NCBI RefSeq assembly: GCF_008801695.1
Contig: NZ_VZPF01000006.1
Location: forward strand, 1-64,000
Length of the DNA stretch: 64,000 bases
Reading direction: 5' to 3'
Source of the DNA: Pantoea stewartii subsp. stewartii
GTDB lineage: Bacteria > Pseudomonadota > Gammaproteobacteria > Enterobacterales > Enterobacteriaceae
Shown here in pieces: positions 9,966-64,000 of this stretch (positions within the stretch are counted from its first letter, which is position 1; each line of letters opens with the position of its first letter). The translations under genes and the position numbers were made by a program. Below the pieces are notes generated by a model, which saw only the letters and a list, made by a program, of their open reading frames with translations, had not been told where the DNA came from and made no database searches.

Positions 9966-11297
9966 TTACTTCATCCCCAACTGCGGTAACCAGCCTTTGA
10001 CCTGAGCAAGATACTGCGAACGATCTTTGCCCGTCAGACCTTCCATGCGCGGCAGCTTGGCCGTCAGGGGATTAACAGCCTGATTATTAATCCAGATCTC
10101 AAAATGCAGATGCGGTCCGGTTGAACGGCCGGTATTGCCGGAGAGCGCAATGCGATCGCCACGCTTTACCTTTTGCCCCGGTTTCACCAGCACTTTTTTG
10201 AGGTGCATGTAACGCGTCATATACTGACGGCCGTGACGGATGGCCACATAGTTACCGGCGGCACCGCCGTTTTTGGCCACCACGACTTCGCCATCGCCCA
10301 CAGCCAGCACAGGCGTACCAACCGGCAGCGCGAAATCGACACCTTTGTGCGGTGCAATTCGGCCCGTCACCGGATTAAGACGGCGCGGATTAAAGTTCGA
10401 CGAGACACGGTACTGTTTCACGGTGGGGAAACGCATAAAGCCCCGCGCCAAGCCCGCACCGCTGCGGTCGTAAAATTTGCCGTCTTCGGCCCGGAACGCG
10501 TAATAATCTTTGCCGCCGCTGCGCAAACGCACACCCAGTAGCTGGCTTTGCGCGCTCTTACCTTCCAGCATTTCGCGCGACATCAGCACGCTGAATTTAT
10601 CGCCCGCGCGTAACTTACGAAAATCCATCTGCCACTGCATGGCTTTGATCACGCTGCTGGCCTCTGCACTGCTTAAACCGGCACGCATAGCGCTGGCGGC
10701 GAAGCTGCCGCGGACTTCGCCCTGAATCACACTGTTGCGCCATTCACCCTTTTGCATCTGCGACTGCATGCTAAAGCCACCTTTATCGGTGCGCGTATAG
10801 GTGCGGGTTTCACGACGCGAGATTTCCCAGGTAAAGGTATCCAGTGCGCCGGCATCATTGAGCGTCCAGCTGAGCTGCTGACCGACCTGCAAATTACGCA
10901 GATCTTTATCGCTGGCCACCAGCGCATTAATGTCGCTCATGTCGATGCCATACTGGTTCAGTGCGCTGCTGAGCGTGTCGCCTGAGGAGACGGTGTAATC
11001 GTGCGTGCCTGCCGTATCGGCGACATCCTGATCGACGTCGTCTGAAGGCAGTTCTTCATCGGGTTCGGGCGTGGTTTGATCGATAGGTTCACTGGCTTCA
11101 GGAAGCAGTGTGCGAAACTCGTTTTTTTCTAACTCAATGGCTTTGACAATGGGCGTAACATCATCATTCGGATGGTAAACATAAGGCCGCCAGACTGCGA
11201 CGGCCAGAGTAACAACGGTTAACGATCCCAGCATAACGCGGTGGGGGCGCGGCAAATTATTAAATGCGAGGGCGACAGAGCGGGCTATCTGCTGCAC
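9966..11297 (-). CDS. mepM: Murein DD-endopeptidase MepM
   Basis: A 443-residue periplasmic, membrane-anchored hydrolase that cuts D-Ala-mDAP cross-links to let the sacculus grow. It has an N-terminal TM helix (~21-38), a LysM domain (HDYTVSSGDTLSSALNQYGI), an OapA-like middle part and a C-terminal M23 peptidase. Zinc ligands are visible in APHKGVDFALP (H..D) and TGPHLHFEIW (HLH). The N-terminal ~35 residues are almost identical to E. coli MepM (440 aa). An acidic linker (about 65-95) is longer here. It lies between lpxM and znuA as in E. coli; the gap to znuA is only 14 bp, so readthrough from znuA is likely. Confidence 0.96.
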   Translation of the reverse strand: MQQIARSVALAFNNLPRPHRVMLGSLTVVTLAVAVWRPYVYHPNDDVTPIVKAIELEKNEFRTLLPEASEPIDQTTPEPDEELPSDDVDQDVADTAGTHDYTVSSGDTLSSALNQYGIDMSDINALVASDKDLRNLQVGQQLSWTLNDAGALDTFTWEISRRETRTYTRTDKGGFSMQSQMQKGEWRNSVIQGEVRGSFAASAMRAGLSSAEASSVIKAMQWQMDFRKLRAGDKFSVLMSREMLEGKSAQSQLLGVRLRSGGKDYYAFRAEDGKFYDRSGAGLARGFMRFPTVKQYRVSSNFNPRRLNPVTGRIAPHKGVDFALPVGTPVLAVGDGEVVVAKNGGAAGNYVAIRHGRQYMTRYMHLKKVLVKPGQKVKRGDRIALSGNTGRSTGPHLHFEIWINNQAVNPLTAKLPRMEGLTGKDRSQYLAQVKGWLPQLGMK

Positions 11298-55369: not shown

Positions 55370-56316
55370 TTACTGCTTATCCCGTGCCCACGTCGCGCTG
55401 CTGACATTCACCTTCACTGGCAACAGACCGATCTGGGTAAATTTATCGGCCAGCGCCTGCTGTTCGTTAAACACGTTGGGCGTCATACGTTCCGCCCCAA
55501 ACGGCATGCGGGCCAGCGCGCGCTGCCAGATGGGTACAGGCAACCCCGTGGAGCCGGAAAGGATTTTTGCGGCGTCAGCCTGATGACTGTTTGCCCAGGT
55601 GCTCAGCTGACTCAGCGCGTTCAGCACCTGTTTCGCCGTCTCGGGATGACCATCAGCAAATTTGCGGCTGGCCAGGAAAAAAGTGTAATGCGGCACTAAG
55701 CCTTCGGCATTTTTCAGCAGGCGCGCATGGGCCGTGGTTTCGACTTCGGCCAAATACGGGTCCCAGATAACCCAGGCGTCGACAGCACCGCGCTGGAAGG
55801 CGGCCCGGGCATCGGCAGGCGGAAGATAAACCGGCGTAATATCTTTATACGTCAGCCCCGCCTGCTCCAGCGCAGTCACCAGCAGATAATTAACATCCGA
55901 TCCTTTGTTCAGCGCCACGCGCTTGCCTTTCAGATCCTTGACACTTTTGATCGTGGAATCGGCCGGCACCACAATGGCCTCGGTCTGCGGGTTGGCCGGC
56001 GAGTGGCCAAGGTAGACCAGATCGGCCTGTGCCGCCTGCGCGAAAACAGGAGGCGCATCGCCGGTGGCCGCCAAATCGATACTGCTACGTTAAGCCCTTC
56101 CAGCATCTGCGGGCCTGCCGGGAACTCCACCCAGCGCACATCAATGCCCTGCTTTTTAAATTCGCTGTCGAGCGTGCCACGGTATTTCAGCAGCGCAAAA
56201 ATATTCGCTTTCTGAAAACCAATATTCACGACCTGGGGTTTGTCTTCCGCCTGTGCTGTCACGAAGGTGCCAAGTTGAGCGAGCGCAATCAGTGCGCTTA
56301 TCACTATTTTTCTCAT
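55370..56316 (-). pseudogene. SsuA-like aliphatic sulfonate binding protein, frameshifted
   Basis: Two frames together encode one SsuA-type periplasmic binding protein. The 5' part (56316 down to ~56090) has a signal peptide (MRKIVISALIALAQLG..TAQA), VNIGFQKANIFALLKYRG and EFPAGPQMLEGLNV. The 3' part continues in another frame with DLAATGDAPPVFAQAAQADLVY to the end. Restoring one G near 56090 (GTAGCAGT for GTAGGCAGT) rejoins them to ~315 residues. No permease or ATPase gene is adjacent. Either a real inactivating deletion or a sequencing error. It lies 94 bp downstream of the regulator on the same strand. Confidence 0.85.
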
Positions 56317-56410
56317 TTTTCTGTCCTGAACGAAGGTGTTGTCAGCGCAACATAACAAATCCGTGCCTGAGGGCTTAATGCGTATAAGTTCTGTCCTTAG
56401 TCATAAAACG

Positions 56411-58300
56411 TCATTGCGGCCAGACTCTGTCCCGGACGTTGATGGCGCGGGGAAACAGACCGAGCGCATAGAAACGATCGGCGATTCTCTGCTGCTCGCG
56501 AATAATCGCTAAGTTCATCGCCTGAGTTCGATGACTACGCCGCGCCAGCGCCTGACGTAATGCGCTGTCGGACATGCCCAACTCCTTTGCCAGTAACCCG
56601 GCAGCCTCGGCCGGATGGGCATCGATATACTGGCCAGTCTGCTCCAGCGCGGTCATCAACAGGCGCAGTAAATCGGGTGAATGCGTAGCAAACTGGCGAT
56701 CCGCCAGATAGAACTGATGGTTGCTGACCCGGCCCACGCCATCGGCAATGACGCGCAGTTGATCGCCACGTTCGGCCTCACTCAGTAAAGGGTCCCACAT
56801 CATCCAGGCATCGACCGCATTCAGGTCGCTGGCGGTTAACGGATATTTCGGTGGGGCATACACGATACGCACGTCGTCCAGCGTCAGTCCTGCTTCATCG
56901 AGGATCTGCAGCACCAAAAAATGGACGTTAGAACCTTTATTCACCGCAATGCGCTTGCCTTTGAGATCGGCAATCGTCGTGATGGCGCTGTGTCTGGCGA
57001 CCATCAGGGCAACACTTTGCGGCGCAGGCGGTTCCCAGGCCACATAGACCATGGTGCCCTGATCGGCCTGGGCAAACAGTGGCGGAACTTCGCCTGTCGT
57101 ACCAAAGTCAATTTCCTGATCGCGCAGGGCGTGCAGCAACTGTGGCCCCGCAGGAAATTCACTCCACAACACGCGGACATTCTGGCCCACCAGCTGCTGC
57201 TCAAGATGCTGACGGGCTTTGAGAATGCCAAGATTGCCGAACTTCTGGTAACCAATACGCAACTCGCGCTCCTGCACCACAGAGTCTGTCAAAGCACGCG
57301 ATGGCGCGATGACGCTGCTGCGGCGCGGCTTAATGATGCCGCAGTGGCCCAGATGGGTGCGCAGGCTGTGACGGCTGATCCCCAACAGCGCTGCCGCCTG
57401 GAGCTGATTTCCCTGACTCAGCGCATAGGCATTGCGCACTAAGGATTCAATAATTCTGGGATACAGGGGCGTTTCACTGTGCTGCAGTTGCTGCCGGATA
57501 AACTGATCAATCACATCCTGTTCAGGCACCGGTTCAGCCTCAGTCACGTGGCCCAGACGCAGATGCCCGGGGCCAATGAGTGTTTCCTGGCTGAGCAGAA
57601 CAGCATTATGTAATGTGTTTTCCAGCTCCCGAATATTGCCCGGCCAGGCGTACCGGCTTAACGTCGCGATCGCCTCCTCACTCAGACGCAGCTGAGGTCG
57701 GCCCAGTCGGCGCGCATAGTGTTGCAGAAAATGCGCGGCCAGCACCGGTATATCCTCACGGCGCTCGCGCAGAGGCGGCAGCGCCACGCTGGCCACATTC
57801 AGCCGGTAATAAAGATCCTCGCGGAAGCGCCGTTCGGCAATCGCACCGGTCAGGTCGCGGTTCGTGGCGGCAAGCACCCGAACATTTACCTTTATAGCCT
57901 GAGATGAACCTACCCGGGTAATCTCTCTCTCCTGCAATACGCGCAACAGTTTTACCTGGAGCGGCAAACTGAGTTCACCGATCTCATCCAGCAACAGCGT
58001 GCCGCCCTGCGCCGCCTCGAACCAGCCACGATGACGTTCCGTGGCACCGGTAAACGCGCCCTTCTCATGCCCAAACAGTTCTGACTCGGCAAGACTTTCC
58101 GTCAGTGCGCCGCAGTTCACGGCGACAAAGGGCGCGCGGCGGCGCGGGCTGTGGTGATGCAGATAGCGCGCCATCACCTCTTTACCGGTGCCGGTTTCGC
58201 CAATGATTAACACCGTGGCATCCGTGGGTGCCAGGCGATCCAGGATACTTTTGAAGGCCAGAGAAGACGGGTCAATTAAATCGGGACCAGCGTGTTCCAT
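56411..58300 (-). CDS. Sigma-54 activator with C-terminal SsuA-like ligand-binding domain
   Basis: A 629-residue protein of unusual order: AAA+ domain first (~10-235: Walker A GETGTGKE at 34-41, GAFTGA at 81-86, Walker B LLLDEI with Asp105-Glu106, arginine-finger [10 protein letters not shown]), Fis-type helix-turn-helix (~285-322, [17 protein letters not shown]), then an SsuA/NMT1-type binding domain without signal peptide (~346-629: [46 protein letters not shown]). It probably senses a sulfonate-like ligand in the cytoplasm and activates the divergent ssuD-like operon through sigma-54. ATG at 58300 has AGG 8 nt upstream; TTG at 58315 is an alternative. Ligand and targets are inference. Confidence 0.88.
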
Positions 58301-58377
58301 AGCGAATACCTGCAAAGTGACTGAGCGCTCACGATAACGCTAAGCGTGAAGGGAAACGAGCCACGGGCTGAGACCCT

Positions 58378-58395
58378 GTGCTGCAAATGCAGCAC
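58378..58395. promoter_or_regulatory. Upstream activator site 1 (palindrome)
   Basis: GTGCTGCAAATGCAGCAC, a perfect 8-2-8 palindrome centred ~130 bp upstream of the expected sigma-54 start. Probable binding site of the adjacent activator's Fis domain. Confidence 0.7.
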
Positions 58396-58408: not shown

Positions 58409-58426
58409 CTGCTGCATATGCAACAG
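58409..58426. promoter_or_regulatory. Upstream activator site 2 (palindrome)
   Basis: CTGCTGCATATGCAACAG, one mismatch from a perfect palindrome and sharing the TGCTGCA-N2-TGCAnCA pattern with site 1. Centre-to-centre distance is 31 bp, three helical turns, putting both on one DNA face. Confidence 0.68.
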
Positions 58427-58488: not shown

Positions 58489-58505
58489 TTGGCACGTATT
58501 CTGCT
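58489..58505 (+). promoter_or_regulatory. Sigma-54 promoter of the ssuD-like operon
   Basis: TTGGCACGTATTCTGCT fits YTGGCACG-N4-TTGCW with a single mismatch; GG and GC are separated by exactly 10 bp. Start expected ~58516, leaving a ~58-nt leader to the ATG at 58575. Confidence 0.85.
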
Positions 58506-58574
58506 AATGGCTTTATAACTGAAAGATTGCTTTTCATTTGCCAATTTCAAATATCGTTATAAAGAAATCTGCTA

Positions 58575-59747
58575 ATGCCTGAAGCCTCTGCGAAAAACAT
58601 TAATCTGTTCTGGTTTTTACCCACCCACGGTGACGGACGTTATCTGGGGACCACCCAGGGCGGCAGAGCGGTCGATCTGCCCTATTTGCAACAGGTCGCC
58701 CTGGCGGCAGACAATCTGGGTTTCTACGGCGTACTGATCCCCACGGGTAAAAGTTGTGAAGATTCCTGGCTGGTGGCGGCGGCTCTGGCCCCCATCACTA
58801 AACAGCTGCGTTATCTGGTGGCGGTCAGGCCGGGGTTGCAGCCGCCGAGCCTGGCGGCGCGCATGGCGGCAACGCTGGACCGTCTGTCAGACGGGCGCTT
58901 ACTGATCAATGTGGTGACGGGTGGCGATCCGGTGGAAAATAAAGGCGACGGTATTTTCCTGAGTCATGCCGAACGCTATCAGGTCACGCGGGAGTTCCTG
59001 GAGGTTTATTCCCGTTTGCTGAAAGGCGAGAAAGTGGACTTCCACGGTGAACATATTCGTGTGGAGGGCGCTGAAATTCTGTTTCCGCCTGTGCAGGCCG
59101 ACGGTCCACCGCTCTACTTTGGTGGTTCGTCAGACGATGCGGTCGACGTGGCCGCCAGTCAGGTCGATACTTATCTCACCTGGGGCGAACCCGTTGAGCA
59201 GGTTGCCGCCAAACTGGACGTTGTGCGCCAGCGGGCGCAGGAACGTGGCCGGGCGTTGTCCTACGGCATTCGACTGCACGTTATTGTGCGTGAAACCGAA
59301 GAGGAAGCCTGGGCAGCAGCCGATAAACTGATAGCTCATCTGGATGATGAAACCATTGCATCCGCTCAGAAGATCTTTGCCCGTATGGATTCTACGGGCC
59401 AGGCGCGCATGAGTGCACTGCACGGCGGTTCACGCGAAGGCTTACGCATCGGCCCCAATTTATGGGCAGGCGTCGGACTGGTGCGCGGCGGCGCGGGCAC
59501 TGCACTGGTCGGCAACCCTCAGCAGGTGGCAGCGCGTATTCGGGAATACCAGGCGCTGGGCATTGATAACTTTATTCTGTCGGGCTATCCGCATCTGGAA
59601 GAAGCGCACCGGGTAGCCGAGTTACTGATGCCACTGCTGCCGCTGTCGACGCACGCCGGGAAAGCACAGCGCAGCGTGAATACAGGTCCCTTTGGTGAAA
59701 CTATCGGTGGCGATCGTCGTCCCGAAAAAAGCGCCAGTGCCAGCTAA
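58575..59747 (+). CDS. ssuD: FMNH2-dependent alkanesulfonate monooxygenase (SsuD-like)
   Basis: A 390-residue bacterial-luciferase-like enzyme that oxidatively releases sulfite from alkanesulfonates. Strong similarity to E. coli SsuD (381 aa), with [18 protein letters not shown] at the start, active-site Cys in [10 protein letters not shown], Arg/His in [10 protein letters not shown] and Tyr in [10 protein letters not shown]. The SsuE-type flavin reductase it needs is not encoded nearby. Preceded by a sigma-54 promoter and divergent from its probable activator. It may act on a sulfonate other than that of the housekeeping SsuD. Confidence 0.92.
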
Positions 59748-59762
59748 CAAATGAGGCGGTTT

Positions 59763-61175
59763 ATGTCAGAGCAGCATATTGTCATCGTGGGCGGTGGATT
59801 TAGCGGGACAGCGCTGGCCGTGCATCTGGGTCGTCTGGGCCAGGCCGGACTGCGTGTCACGCTCATCGAACCCCGGTCGCAGCTGGCGCAGGGCGTTGCC
59901 TACTCGACGGCCGATCCGGCTCACCGCCTTAATGTACCCGCGTCACGCATGCAGCTGGCGGGAGATGAAGAAGGCAGCTTTGATCGCTGGTATCGCGCCT
60001 CTGATGCATATGTCAGCGATCCCGCCGCGCGCTGGCACGATGGTCATGTCTATCCTCAGCGCAGGCAGTTTGCCCGTTGGGTCAATGCACAGTTCGAGGC
60101 GGCACAACGTGAGTCGCCTGTCGTTCTGGCGCATCTGCAGGATCGCGCTGTGGCTTTCCGGGATGGCACGGTCAGCACCGCCGCCGGCACACACCTTGCC
60201 GCCGACATTGTGGTCCTGGCCGTCAGTCATCCCGCGCCGTCGTTGCCTGGCGCGTTAACCGCACTGGCTGACCATCCCGCCATCATCGCCGATCCCTGGC
60301 AGGAGAAAGCCCTCGCCTCTGTCGGTCCGGAGGAGCGCATCGCCATTGTGGGCAGCGGCTTAACGATGGCGGATATGGTGGCCACGCTGGATCGCCAGGG
60401 GCACCGCGGCCCTGTCACCGTGTTTTCACGCCGTGGACAACTTCCCCGGCCCAATATCAGTCAGCATGACCTCAGTTGGTCGCTTGAAGGGCACCTTGCC
60501 AGGCCAGCGGGTGTGCGCTGCTGGTTACGGCGCATCCGCCAGGACATGCGTCAGGCGGCGGCGCGCGGGCTTCCGTGGCAGGTCGTCTTTGATGAGGTTC
60601 GTCGGCAGGGCCAGACCCTCTGGCAGAGCCTGCCACTGAATGAGCAACGGCGCTTTCTGCGCCATCTGCGGCCGTGGTGGGATGTGCACCGCTACCGCAT
60701 TGCGCCACAGGCAGGCCAGGTGCTGAACGCGCGGCAGGAAAACGGATCGTTGCAGGTGATGGCGGCGCGGCTGACGGCGGCAGAGTCCAGCCATTCTGCG
60801 GTACGGCTGCATCTGCAAACTCGCTCGGGCGAAGTCGTGACGCGGGAGGTGGATAAGGTGATCGTGACCACCGGCCCGGCGCACGGGAAACTGGTACAAC
60901 ATGATGCCCTGCTACGCCAGTTGTGTGATGACGGCGTCATCCGGCCCGATCCTTTAGCGCTTGGCATTGATGTCAATGCCCTGTCGCAGACGCGAACGGC
61001 ACAGGGCCACAGCAATTCCCATCTGTATGTGGTCGGTCCCGCGGCCCGCGGTCGGTTTGGTGAACTGATGGGCCTGCCGCAGGTGGCAATGCATGCGGAA
61101 GCGGTTGCCCGTCAACTGCTGAATCTCACAACCGCTACGCTAAACGAGCGATGTCCCCTTTCACTGACTGACTAA
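59763..61175 (+). CDS. FAD/NAD(P)-binding protein (YdhS-like, NAD_binding_9)
   Basis: A 470-residue flavoprotein. N-terminal dinucleotide fold HIVIVGGGFSGTALAVHL, followed by ASRMQL and a second nucleotide motif IAIVGSGLTMADMVATL, and C-terminal LYVVGPAARGRFGELMG. These match the FAD-NAD(P)-binding family whose members include E. coli YdhS; function is unknown. ATG at 59763 follows GAGGCGG. It lies 15 bp after the ssuD-like gene and may supply redox or oxygenase activity to it, which is inference. Confidence 0.82.
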   Translation: MSEQHIVIVGGGFSGTALAVHLGRLGQAGLRVTLIEPRSQLAQGVAYSTADPAHRLNVPASRMQLAGDEEGSFDRWYRASDAYVSDPAARWHDGHVYPQRRQFARWVNAQFEAAQRESPVVLAHLQDRAVAFRDGTVSTAAGTHLAADIVVLAVSHPAPSLPGALTALADHPAIIADPWQEKALASVGPEERIAIVGSGLTMADMVATLDRQGHRGPVTVFSRRGQLPRPNISQHDLSWSLEGHLARPAGVRCWLRRIRQDMRQAAARGLPWQVVFDEVRRQGQTLWQSLPLNEQRRFLRHLRPWWDVHRYRIAPQAGQVLNARQENGSLQVMAARLTAAESSHSAVRLHLQTRSGEVVTREVDKVIVTTGPAHGKLVQHDALLRQLCDDGVIRPDPLALGIDVNALSQTRTAQGHSNSHLYVVGPAARGRFGELMGLPQVAMHAEAVARQLLNLTTATLNERCPLSLTD

Positions 61176-62729: not shown

Positions 62730-62790
62730 CATGCCTGAAAATAAAAAATAACTTATTGAAATTAAAGCAATCCTTATCACTTTTTCATGT

Positions 62791-62819
62791 TTGTTTACTG
62801 CGTATGCACTGCTTATAAA
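62791..62819 (+). promoter_or_regulatory. Sigma-70-like promoter of the MFS transporter gene
   Basis: TTGTTT, a 17-bp spacer, and TATAAA, 33 bp before the ATG at 62853. Confidence 0.6.
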
Positions 62820-62852
62820 GGCAGCACCTGTACAGACAATAACGAGGATAAC

Positions 62853-64000
62853 ATGAGCACTCTCAATATCGATGATTATGTGGCGATCCCCTCGCCGCCT
62901 TCCACACCGATTCGCTCCGTCAACGATGTGGCCCGACTGATCAATACGCAAAGTGACAAAAACAGCTATGCGCGCTGGATCGTGTTTCTGGCGCTGGGCG
63001 GCGTTTTTCTGGATGCCTATGACCTCACGACGCTGTCCTACGGCATCGATGATGTCGTTAAGACGTTTAGCTTAACGCCAACCTTAACCGGGCTGGTCAC
63101 CTCCTCCATTATGATCGGCACCATTGTGGGCAACCTGGCTGGCGGCTGGCTGACCGATAAATACGGTCGCTATTCGGTGTTTATGGCAGACATGCTTTTT
63201 TTCGTCGTTTCTGCCCTCGCTGCCGGTCTGGCTCCGAATGTCTGGGTAATGATCGGGGCGCGCTTTTTGATGGGCATTGGTGTGGGAATGGATTTGCCTG
63301 TGGCCATGGCCTATCTGGCCGAGTTCTCGAAGTTTTCGGGTAAAGGCAACAAAGCTGCGCGACTGGCGGCCTGGTGCCCGATGTGGTATGCCGCCTCGTC
63401 GGTCTGCTTTTTCATCATCTTCGCCCTCTACTTCCTGTTGCCAGCCCAGCACATTGACTGGCTGTGGCGGGCATCGCTGTTGTTTGGTGCCGTGCCTGCC
63501 CTGCTGATTATTGCCGTGCGCAGCAAGTTTATGAATGAATCGCCTTTATGGGCGGCTAATCAGGGAGATTTACGCGGTGCCGTCCGTATTCTGCGTGAGT
63601 CCTATGGCATCCAGGCACATGAAGATAAGTCCTCTGCCATCGAGCCTGTCGCACCGGCGGTCAGTTTCCGCGTGCTGTTCCAGAAGCCATATCGCGAACG
63701 CACTATCGTGGCAGCGGTGATGAACGCCTGTATCGCTTTTGAATACACGGCTATCGCGTTTTTCCTGCCCTCGATTCTGGCGCAGTTTCTGGGCGCGGGC
63801 GTGTTCGAAACCATTGCCGCCTCACTGGGACTTAATGCGCTGTTCGCCTTTACCGGCGGCCTGCTGGGCATGCGACTGGCCTGGAAATTTCCCTCTCGTC
63901 ATGTGGCCATCGCGGGGTTTGCGCTACAGTTTATCGCCCTGATTTCACTGGCCTTGATCGGGCATCCTGAAGCCACTTACGGTGTGGTCTTTGCCATTCT
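62853..64000 (+). CDS. MFS transporter, truncated by the window end
   Basis: The first ~382 residues of a major facilitator. After a ~40-residue polar N-terminus come TM1 (WIVFLALGGVFLDAYDLTTL) with an acidic pair, motif A (GGWLTDKYGRYSVF), the RFLMGIGVGMDLPVAMAYLAEF stretch typical of sugar-porter/aromatic-acid-proton symporter types, and several further TMs. RBS ACGAGG. The fit with neighbours suggests uptake of the organosulfur substrate; that is inference. The frame is open at position 64000. Confidence 0.88.
   Translation, partial: MSTLNIDDYVAIPSPPSTPIRSVNDVARLINTQSDKNSYARWIVFLALGGVFLDAYDLTTLSYGIDDVVKTFSLTPTLTGLVTSSIMIGTIVGNLAGGWLTDKYGRYSVFMADMLFFVVSALAAGLAPNVWVMIGARFLMGIGVGMDLPVAMAYLAEFSKFSGKGNKAARLAAWCPMWYAASSVCFFIIFALYFLLPAQHIDWLWRASLLFGAVPALLIIAVRSKFMNESPLWAANQGDLRGAVRILRESYGIQAHEDKSSAIEPVAPAVSFRVLFQKPYRERTIVAAVMNACIAFEYTAIAFFLPSILAQFLGAGVFETIAASLGLNALFAFTGGLLGMRLAWKFPSRHVAIAGFALQFIALISLALIGHPEATYGVVFAI

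Follow-up and report, generated by a model that had tools for sequence, protein, structure and literature searches.

In Pantoea stewartii subsp. stewartii, we found a 629-residue protein in which a sigma-54 activator is joined, behind its DNA-binding domain, to a solute-binding domain of the SsuA type. Its gene lies in the stretch of 64,000 nucleotides analyzed here (the window). We consider it probable that this protein is a dedicated sigma-54 (RpoN) activator of the SfnR lineage, gated by its C-terminal, cytoplasmic SsuA-type Venus-flytrap domain acting as a receptor for short alkanesulfonates. SfnR is the Pseudomonas sigma-54 activator of sulfone and sulfonate use, a sulfur-starvation activator that targets msu, sfn and ssu genes; it is a two-domain protein of about 370 residues that ends after the helix-turn-helix (HTH).

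The regulator is encoded by a single frame that is open from 58315 to 56411 on the minus strand. Window ORF analysis, domain profiles and full-length relatives indicate an ATG at 58300 as the likely start (coding sequence 56411..58300, stop codon included), with an in-frame TTG at 58315 as the alternative. Both the profiles and an AlphaFold model confirmed the domain order read in the initial annotation, namely an AAA+ domain with GAFTGA, then a Fis HTH, then a full SsuA-type domain. By Pfam and alignment, the AAA+ sigma-54 interaction domain and its lid cover residues 20-255 (57536..58243, minus strand), with Walker A at 34-41, GAFTGA at 81-86 and D105-E106; the motor residues G34-E41, G81, F83-A86 and D105-E106 are invariant in 54 aligned sequences. 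The Fis-type HTH (residues 279-319; 57344..57466, minus strand) has three helices in the model and is followed by a variable, low-confidence linker (residues 325-344; 57269..57328, minus strand), where pLDDT is below 50 at residues 325-342 and the alignment has no consensus. The SsuA-type domain, recognized by the SsuA family profile and by fold, takes up residues 346-629 (56414..57265, minus strand). In the model it is complete and two-lobed; the pTM is 0.50, so the arrangement of the domains relative to each other is uncertain.

The whole protein scored 231 bits with Sigma54_activat (PF00158), 88.9 with the AAA lid and 47.8 with NMT1 in Pfam. The Fis HTH model (PF02954) was absent from these whole-protein matches at E 0.001; on residues 250-332 only, it reached 21.4 bits, just short of the cut-off of 22, and in a K. 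pneumoniae relative (L062) it gave 33.4 bits, over that cut-off. The NCBIfam model TIGR01728 (SsuA_fam) passed its cut-off of 163.5 with 189.5 bits and spanned residues 352-632 of the TTG-started frame; the stricter PRK11553 model scored 237.1, below its cut-off of 299. The SsuA-type domain follows the HTH within one frame. Judged by simple hydropathy means rather than by a signal-peptide predictor, no signal-like leader was found in the regulator: the highest 19-residue mean across the whole protein was 1.02, compared to 1.66 for an ssuA2 leader (L012) and 1.44 for the canonical SsuA of the host. This bears out the earlier claim that the binding domain carries no signal peptide.

To place the gene among its relatives, we took six peptides from the part running from the HTH into the solute-binding protein (SBP) domain and used them to scan a collection of genomes at the species level, which gave 74 loci; as these peptides span the HTH-SBP junction, the scan does not reveal the frequency of unfused SBPs of this type. 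The divergent monooxygenases noted in the initial annotation are indeed present, all genes here being on the plus strand. The first is an FMNH2-dependent alkanesulfonate monooxygenase resembling SsuD and MsuD (ssuD2, 58575..59747; NF001939, 647 bits), whose best solved chain is MsuD 7jv3 (577 bits; E. coli SsuD, 531). It is followed by a conserved FAD/NAD(P)-binding protein (PF13454 in Pfam, 59751..61175), for which no solved relative was found by sequence at E 0.001, and by a flavin monooxygenase of the NtaA/DmoA family (TIGR03860, 61247..62656), with the dimethyl-sulfide monooxygenase 6ak1 as its best solved chain (571 bits). Among the 74 loci, ssuD2 occurs in 73, the FAD protein in 69 and the NtaA/DmoA-family monooxygenase in 63. 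Further on, the genome encodes an MFS transporter (62787..64000, continuing beyond the window end; L083:8788-10308) and an SfnB-like flavoprotein (TIGR04022, 243.7 bits, below the cut-off of 430.9). The K. pneumoniae operon (L099) contains MetNIQ-type transporter genes and then an MFS gene, and in Azospirillum and Methylocystis the fusion lies near sfnG, ssuD and acyl-CoA-dehydrogenase-like genes. Transporter content thus varies with lineage, from MFS in the window to MetNIQ-type plus MFS in K. pneumoniae L099. In Winslowiella arboricola (L024:1198-3487), two SfnB-like genes occupy the usual place of the FAD protein beside ssuD2.

On its other side, the regulator adjoins a periplasmic SsuA-like gene, ssuA2 (55370..56358, minus strand), identified by ORFs, Pfam and NCBIfam. 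The initial annotation was right that such a gene lies there; in this assembly, however, a frameshift splits it over two frames (55370-56074 and 55930-56358), while copies elsewhere are intact. In the canonical ssuEADCB operon of the host, ssuC (L084:2849-3703) is likewise split over two frames, and either assembly error or decay could account for both. In three Klebsiella loci (L038, L056 and L060), ssuA2 is found past the NtaA-like gene, on the opposite strand.

We then analyzed the region between the regulator and ssuD2. It contains two 16-bp palindromes, TGCTGCAAATGCAGCA (58379..58394) and, 31 bp from it, TGCTGCATATGCAACA (58410..58425), both putative upstream activating sites (UASs), followed by a predicted sigma-54 -24/-12 element, TGGCACGTATTCTGCT (58490..58505, plus strand), in agreement with the sigma-54 promoter earlier placed near 58489. 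Pattern and shuffle scoring covered 77 upstream regions, those of the window, the 74 loci, L095 and L096. The UAS consensus consists of two palindromes TGYTGCA-N2-TGCARCA, 31 bp apart in 16 regions and 32 bp apart in 61, and the sigma-54 element TGGCAY-N5-BYGCW is offset from them by 77-81 bp and faces the SsuD/MsuD-like operon. A UAS pair with at most 6 mismatches over 28 scored positions was present in 77/77 regions, compared to a best of 7 mismatches in 1540 dinucleotide shuffles, and the sigma-54 element was present in 77/77 regions versus 2/1540 shuffles. Both patterns were drawn from the same loci that were later scored, and many regions come from related species and are not independent. 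By this scoring, the palindromes and sigma-54 sites are not chance letters, and neither are they 77 independent cases. The fusion, its conservation, the paired palindromes and the -24/-12 promoter facing the SsuD/MsuD-like operon are thus established at the level of sequence. By its AAA+ domain, its Fis-type HTH, the enhancer-like sites and the -24/-12 promoter, the protein is assigned as a sigma-54 enhancer-binding protein.

In the 4.92-Mb host assembly, the exact UAS palindrome occurs at two places only, both of them here, and a reversed control gave none. Four other genomes contain 16, 18, 15 and 13 UAS-like sites with one mismatch (reversed controls, 2, 6, 12 and 1), and Hafnia and Lonsdalea have one exact UAS each away from the locus. 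No UAS pair was found in K. pneumoniae at one-mismatch stringency; in the three genomes besides K. pneumoniae, the sole pair spaced by 31-32 bp is the one at the locus. A wide UAS regulon in the host was rejected, since exact sites occur only at this locus, with scattered one-mismatch sites in the four other genomes. In view of these extra sites and the lack of a pair in K. pneumoniae, a wider regulon or a less strict site is conceivable.

Similar sites accompany the alphaproteobacterial fusions, where they were scored without a shuffle control. In Azospirillum, the amidohydrolase-ssuD genes are preceded by a TGGCACCGTTGTTGCG element and, ahead of it, by a pair at 10950/10982 with two mismatches per arm; msuE-sfnG is preceded by TGGCACGCTGATTGCC and, ahead of that, by one exact palindrome (8598). 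Methylocystis has two pairs, 13316/13349 and 14378/14410, in each of which one arm is exact and the other has two mismatches, and elements before sfnG and ssuD; the element on the ssuD side fits only a looser pattern, which also matches elsewhere in the alphaproteobacterial loci. A Pseudomonas SfnR-type locus contains one exact core, TGYTGC-N4-GCARCA (L106:10746), some 150 bp ahead of the point where msuE begins in the alignment; among the other SfnR-type loci, L107 has no exact core, and L108 and L109 have one-mismatch cores only. The single core of L106 suggests a half-site common to SfnR and the fusion.

A second conserved feature lies at the expected start site and in the leader of the ssuD-like operon: an inverted repeat TATAAC-N36-GTTATA (58514..58561), both arms of which are found in 77/77 leaders. 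TATAAC is located exactly 8 nt past the -12 element in all 77 loci, and GTTATA lies 42 nt beyond TATAAC in 75 of them and within two nt of that distance in the other two. An RNA hairpin in the leader was rejected, as RNAalifold on 14 leaders gave only about -0.3. Visual inspection of the alphaproteobacterial promoters examined did not reveal the repeat. It is perhaps a candidate CysB/Cbl site; suggestive of this are the ATAAC or GTTATA pieces that precede ssuE and tauA in the host.

We next compared the receptor domain with SsuA of X. citri, in which, according to the excerpts of PMC3839906, the sulfonate is held by Gln36, Gly68, Gly86 and Ser141, the latter coordinating it via both backbone and side chain, and Trp185 lies beside the chain. 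In the alignment these residues correspond to Q352, G385, G403, N458 and W502 (for Gln36, Gly68, Gly86, Ser141 and Trp185, respectively), all invariant in 54 fusions. Three of the four sulfonate-coordinating residues (Gln36, Gly68 and Gly86) are therefore kept, and Ser141 is replaced by Asn in all 54, so the ligand may differ. The same Asn is found in 30/44 stand-alone SsuA-like rows. Five positions (F354, E396, V430, L488 and L505) are specific to the fusions, being present in 18-19 of 19 fusion rows compared to stand-alone proteins; V430, L488 and L505 stand where most stand-alone rows have E/Q, R and Y/F. One may speculate that these last three changes reflect a lost transporter contact or a gained internal one. 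Its fold, the kept pocket residues and the operon content make it a sound inference that the domain acts as an intracellular sulfonate sensor.

In the mechanism that we favor, the two palindromes would be the binding sites of HTH dimers, and the ligand of the SsuA domain would be an imported, intracellular alkanesulfonate. The two lobes would then close and thereby release the AAA+ domains for assembly into the ring that remodels RNA polymerase-sigma-54. Expression of the operon would in this way follow the entry of its substrate into the cell, the fusion adding substrate gating to an SfnR-type sulfur-starvation activator. Both the ligand and the direction of gating are inferred; a short, methanesulfonate-like compound would be the best guess, the MsuD-like enzyme being the gene that the loci have in common.

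Two other readings bear on this step. It is possible, if doubtful, that the domain senses a ligand other than a sulfonate (a sulfone, a sulfinate, a thioether product or another oxyanion) or that sulfonate binding turns the activator off. Such a reading could draw on the resemblance of the operon enzymes to DmoA and SfnB besides MsuD, on the MetNIQ-type transporter genes of the K. pneumoniae operon and on the Asn in place of Ser141, but the gene held in common is the SsuD/MsuD-like monooxygenase, in 73/74 loci and in both alphaproteobacterial ones. We regard it as improbable that the C-terminal domain is a ligand-free module for structure or oligomerization, with activity set solely by the level of the regulator under sulfur starvation, as for SfnR. 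Indeed, four of the five sulfonate-contacting positions are invariant in the 54 proteins, including two alphaproteobacterial ones with overall identities of only 51% and 43% to the window's protein, and with the pocket kept, a ligand-free domain is not expected; this outweighs, in our opinion, the existence of SfnR-like relatives of 359-393 residues without such a domain, the replacement of Ser141 and the substitution by V430, L488 and L505 (18-19 of 19 rows) of residues found in most stand-alone rows.

To determine how widespread the fusion is, we inspected the scan loci and further collections. The whole fusion lies in one open frame in 72/74 scan loci, the two exceptions being a broken copy on a Pseudomonas plasmid (L079) and one that stops at a contig end (L081); with L095, L096 and the Azospirillum locus L097 added, 75/77 are full fusions. 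According to their record titles, the scan loci represent 18 Enterobacterales genera, including Pantoea, Erwinia, Serratia, Rouxiella, Klebsiella, Raoultella, Enterobacter, Hafnia, Lonsdalea and Brenneria. In a plasmid collection, 72 records matched, and in 71 of these one place spans at least 80% of the query. Such plasmid copies occur in Azospirillum B510 (L097; 50.7% identity) and in Methylocystis iwaonis (L098; 44.9% identity at 98% coverage). In a host assembly of 352 contigs with frameshifted ssuA2 and ssuC, one might suspect that an error of sequencing or annotation had joined two genes. The relatives refute this, the same junction being open in 72/74 loci and one place spanning at least 80% of the query in 71/72 plasmid records, and we give it practically no credence. 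With three candidates per genome scored, so that misses are possible in both samples, the fusion was found in at least 1 of 369 genomes of a class sample, the window's own, among the matches listed, and in 3 of 398 genomes of a phylum sample, all three of the window's genus and the host genome included. The long SsuA-matching frames of L123 and L127 have no activator match. Overall, the fusion is common across Enterobacterales and patchy outside. Some public records annotate it as "sigma-54-dependent Fis family transcriptional regulator" and others as "aliphatic sulfonate ABC transporter substrate-binding protein", an inconsistency explained by its being a fusion of both. In plasmid records H39, H41, H43, H97 and H100, it is labelled ABC transporter substrate-binding protein, and in most of the others listed it is labelled a regulator.

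The ancestry of the two halves was analyzed separately. The activator-half tree comprised 30 AAA-HTH rows (13 Enterobacterales fusions, 2 alphaproteobacterial ones and 15 unfused proteins). In this tree, the fusions and four unfused SfnR-like proteins (L086, L087, L101 and L102) form one clade (100/99), which places the activator half in the SfnR lineage; the fusions alone reach 93/88, short of the starred threshold. We consider the four to be SfnR because the L101 gene is placed after msuE-msuD-msuC homologues (L106), sfnR beside msuEDC being an arrangement described in the excerpts of PMC8234197. Unlike the fusion, with its additional SsuA domain of about 284 residues and total of 629, these SfnR-like proteins end after the HTH (359-393 residues).

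The SBP tree (77 rows, 73 different) does not support the earlier proposal that the domain arose by fusion with the neighboring ssuA. In the phylogeny of the C-terminal domain, the 19 fusions form one clade (99/93) and the 12 ssuA2 neighbors another (100/100). The AU test rejected a single clade of the 17 Enterobacterales fusions and ssuA2 (p-AU 0.021) but not one of all 19 fusions and ssuA2 (p-AU 0.168); the program flagged the rows of Azospirillum and Methylocystis as long branches, which makes the deep branching order uncertain. Among stand-alone proteins, the highest identities (up to 48%) were to SsuAs from ssu operons of other families; ssuA2 reached 37-40% and the canonical SsuA of the host 35%. 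Furthermore, ssuA2 adjoins the regulator in only 16/74 loci and is found anywhere in the examined stretch in 21/74. An origin from the neighboring ssuA is thus unsupported, and the simplest reading of these trees would be one fusion event unrelated to the present neighbor. With two alphaproteobacteria carrying it as well, the fusion is either old or has spread sideways, and as the alphaproteobacterial copies are on plasmids, the two are indistinguishable.

The individual parts and the kind of gene control are known, and their arrangement is new. B. subtilis Btr is a regulator with a C-terminal solute-binding domain of the periplasmic type in the cytoplasm. Neither Btr nor SgrR is known to have an AAA+ sigma-54 machine, and their SBP families are other than that of the fusion. 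SgrR-type regulators, described in the excerpts of PMC13060122 as combining an HTH with a C-terminal SBP_bac_5 domain, resemble the fusion, as does Btr, in having a cytoplasmic periplasmic-type solute-binding domain at the C terminus. Compared to SsuA (3KSX/3KSJ/3E4R, 2X26), whose family profile and fold it shares, the fusion domain has no signal-like leader, is joined to an activator, carries Asn for Ser141 and is not known to serve a transporter. Typical sigma-54 activators have N-terminal sensors, and LevR-type activators an N-terminal HTH and C-terminal PTS domains, as far as the excerpts of PMC10864463 describe them. LevR and CelR thus resemble the fusion in having regulatory domains C-terminal to the AAA+ domain, but they differ from it by their N-terminal HTH and PTS phosphorylation domains and contain no solute-binding domain. 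In the open-access literature searched, we found no report of such a fusion, in which the HTH of a sigma-54 activator is followed by a solute-binding receptor.

We lean slightly towards the broader view that these proteins would form a separate class of sigma-54 activators, derived from one fusion event that placed a whole ABC-transporter receptor in the cytoplasm, after the DNA-binding domain, as a ligand gate; the class would have a paired enhancer code of its own, common to alpha- and gammaproteobacteria. If so, lobe closure would be relayed backwards to the AAA+ ring via the HTH and the linker, in contrast to other activators, for which control from the N terminus is known. The input of a sigma-54 activator would then be a structurally understood ligand-binding fold, located where no signal domain is expected, and gating of the AAA+ ring from the C-terminal side by ligand closure becomes directly testable. 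For plant- and animal-associated Enterobacterales, our data predict a regulon for organosulfur use that, in the host, may consist of a single promoter.
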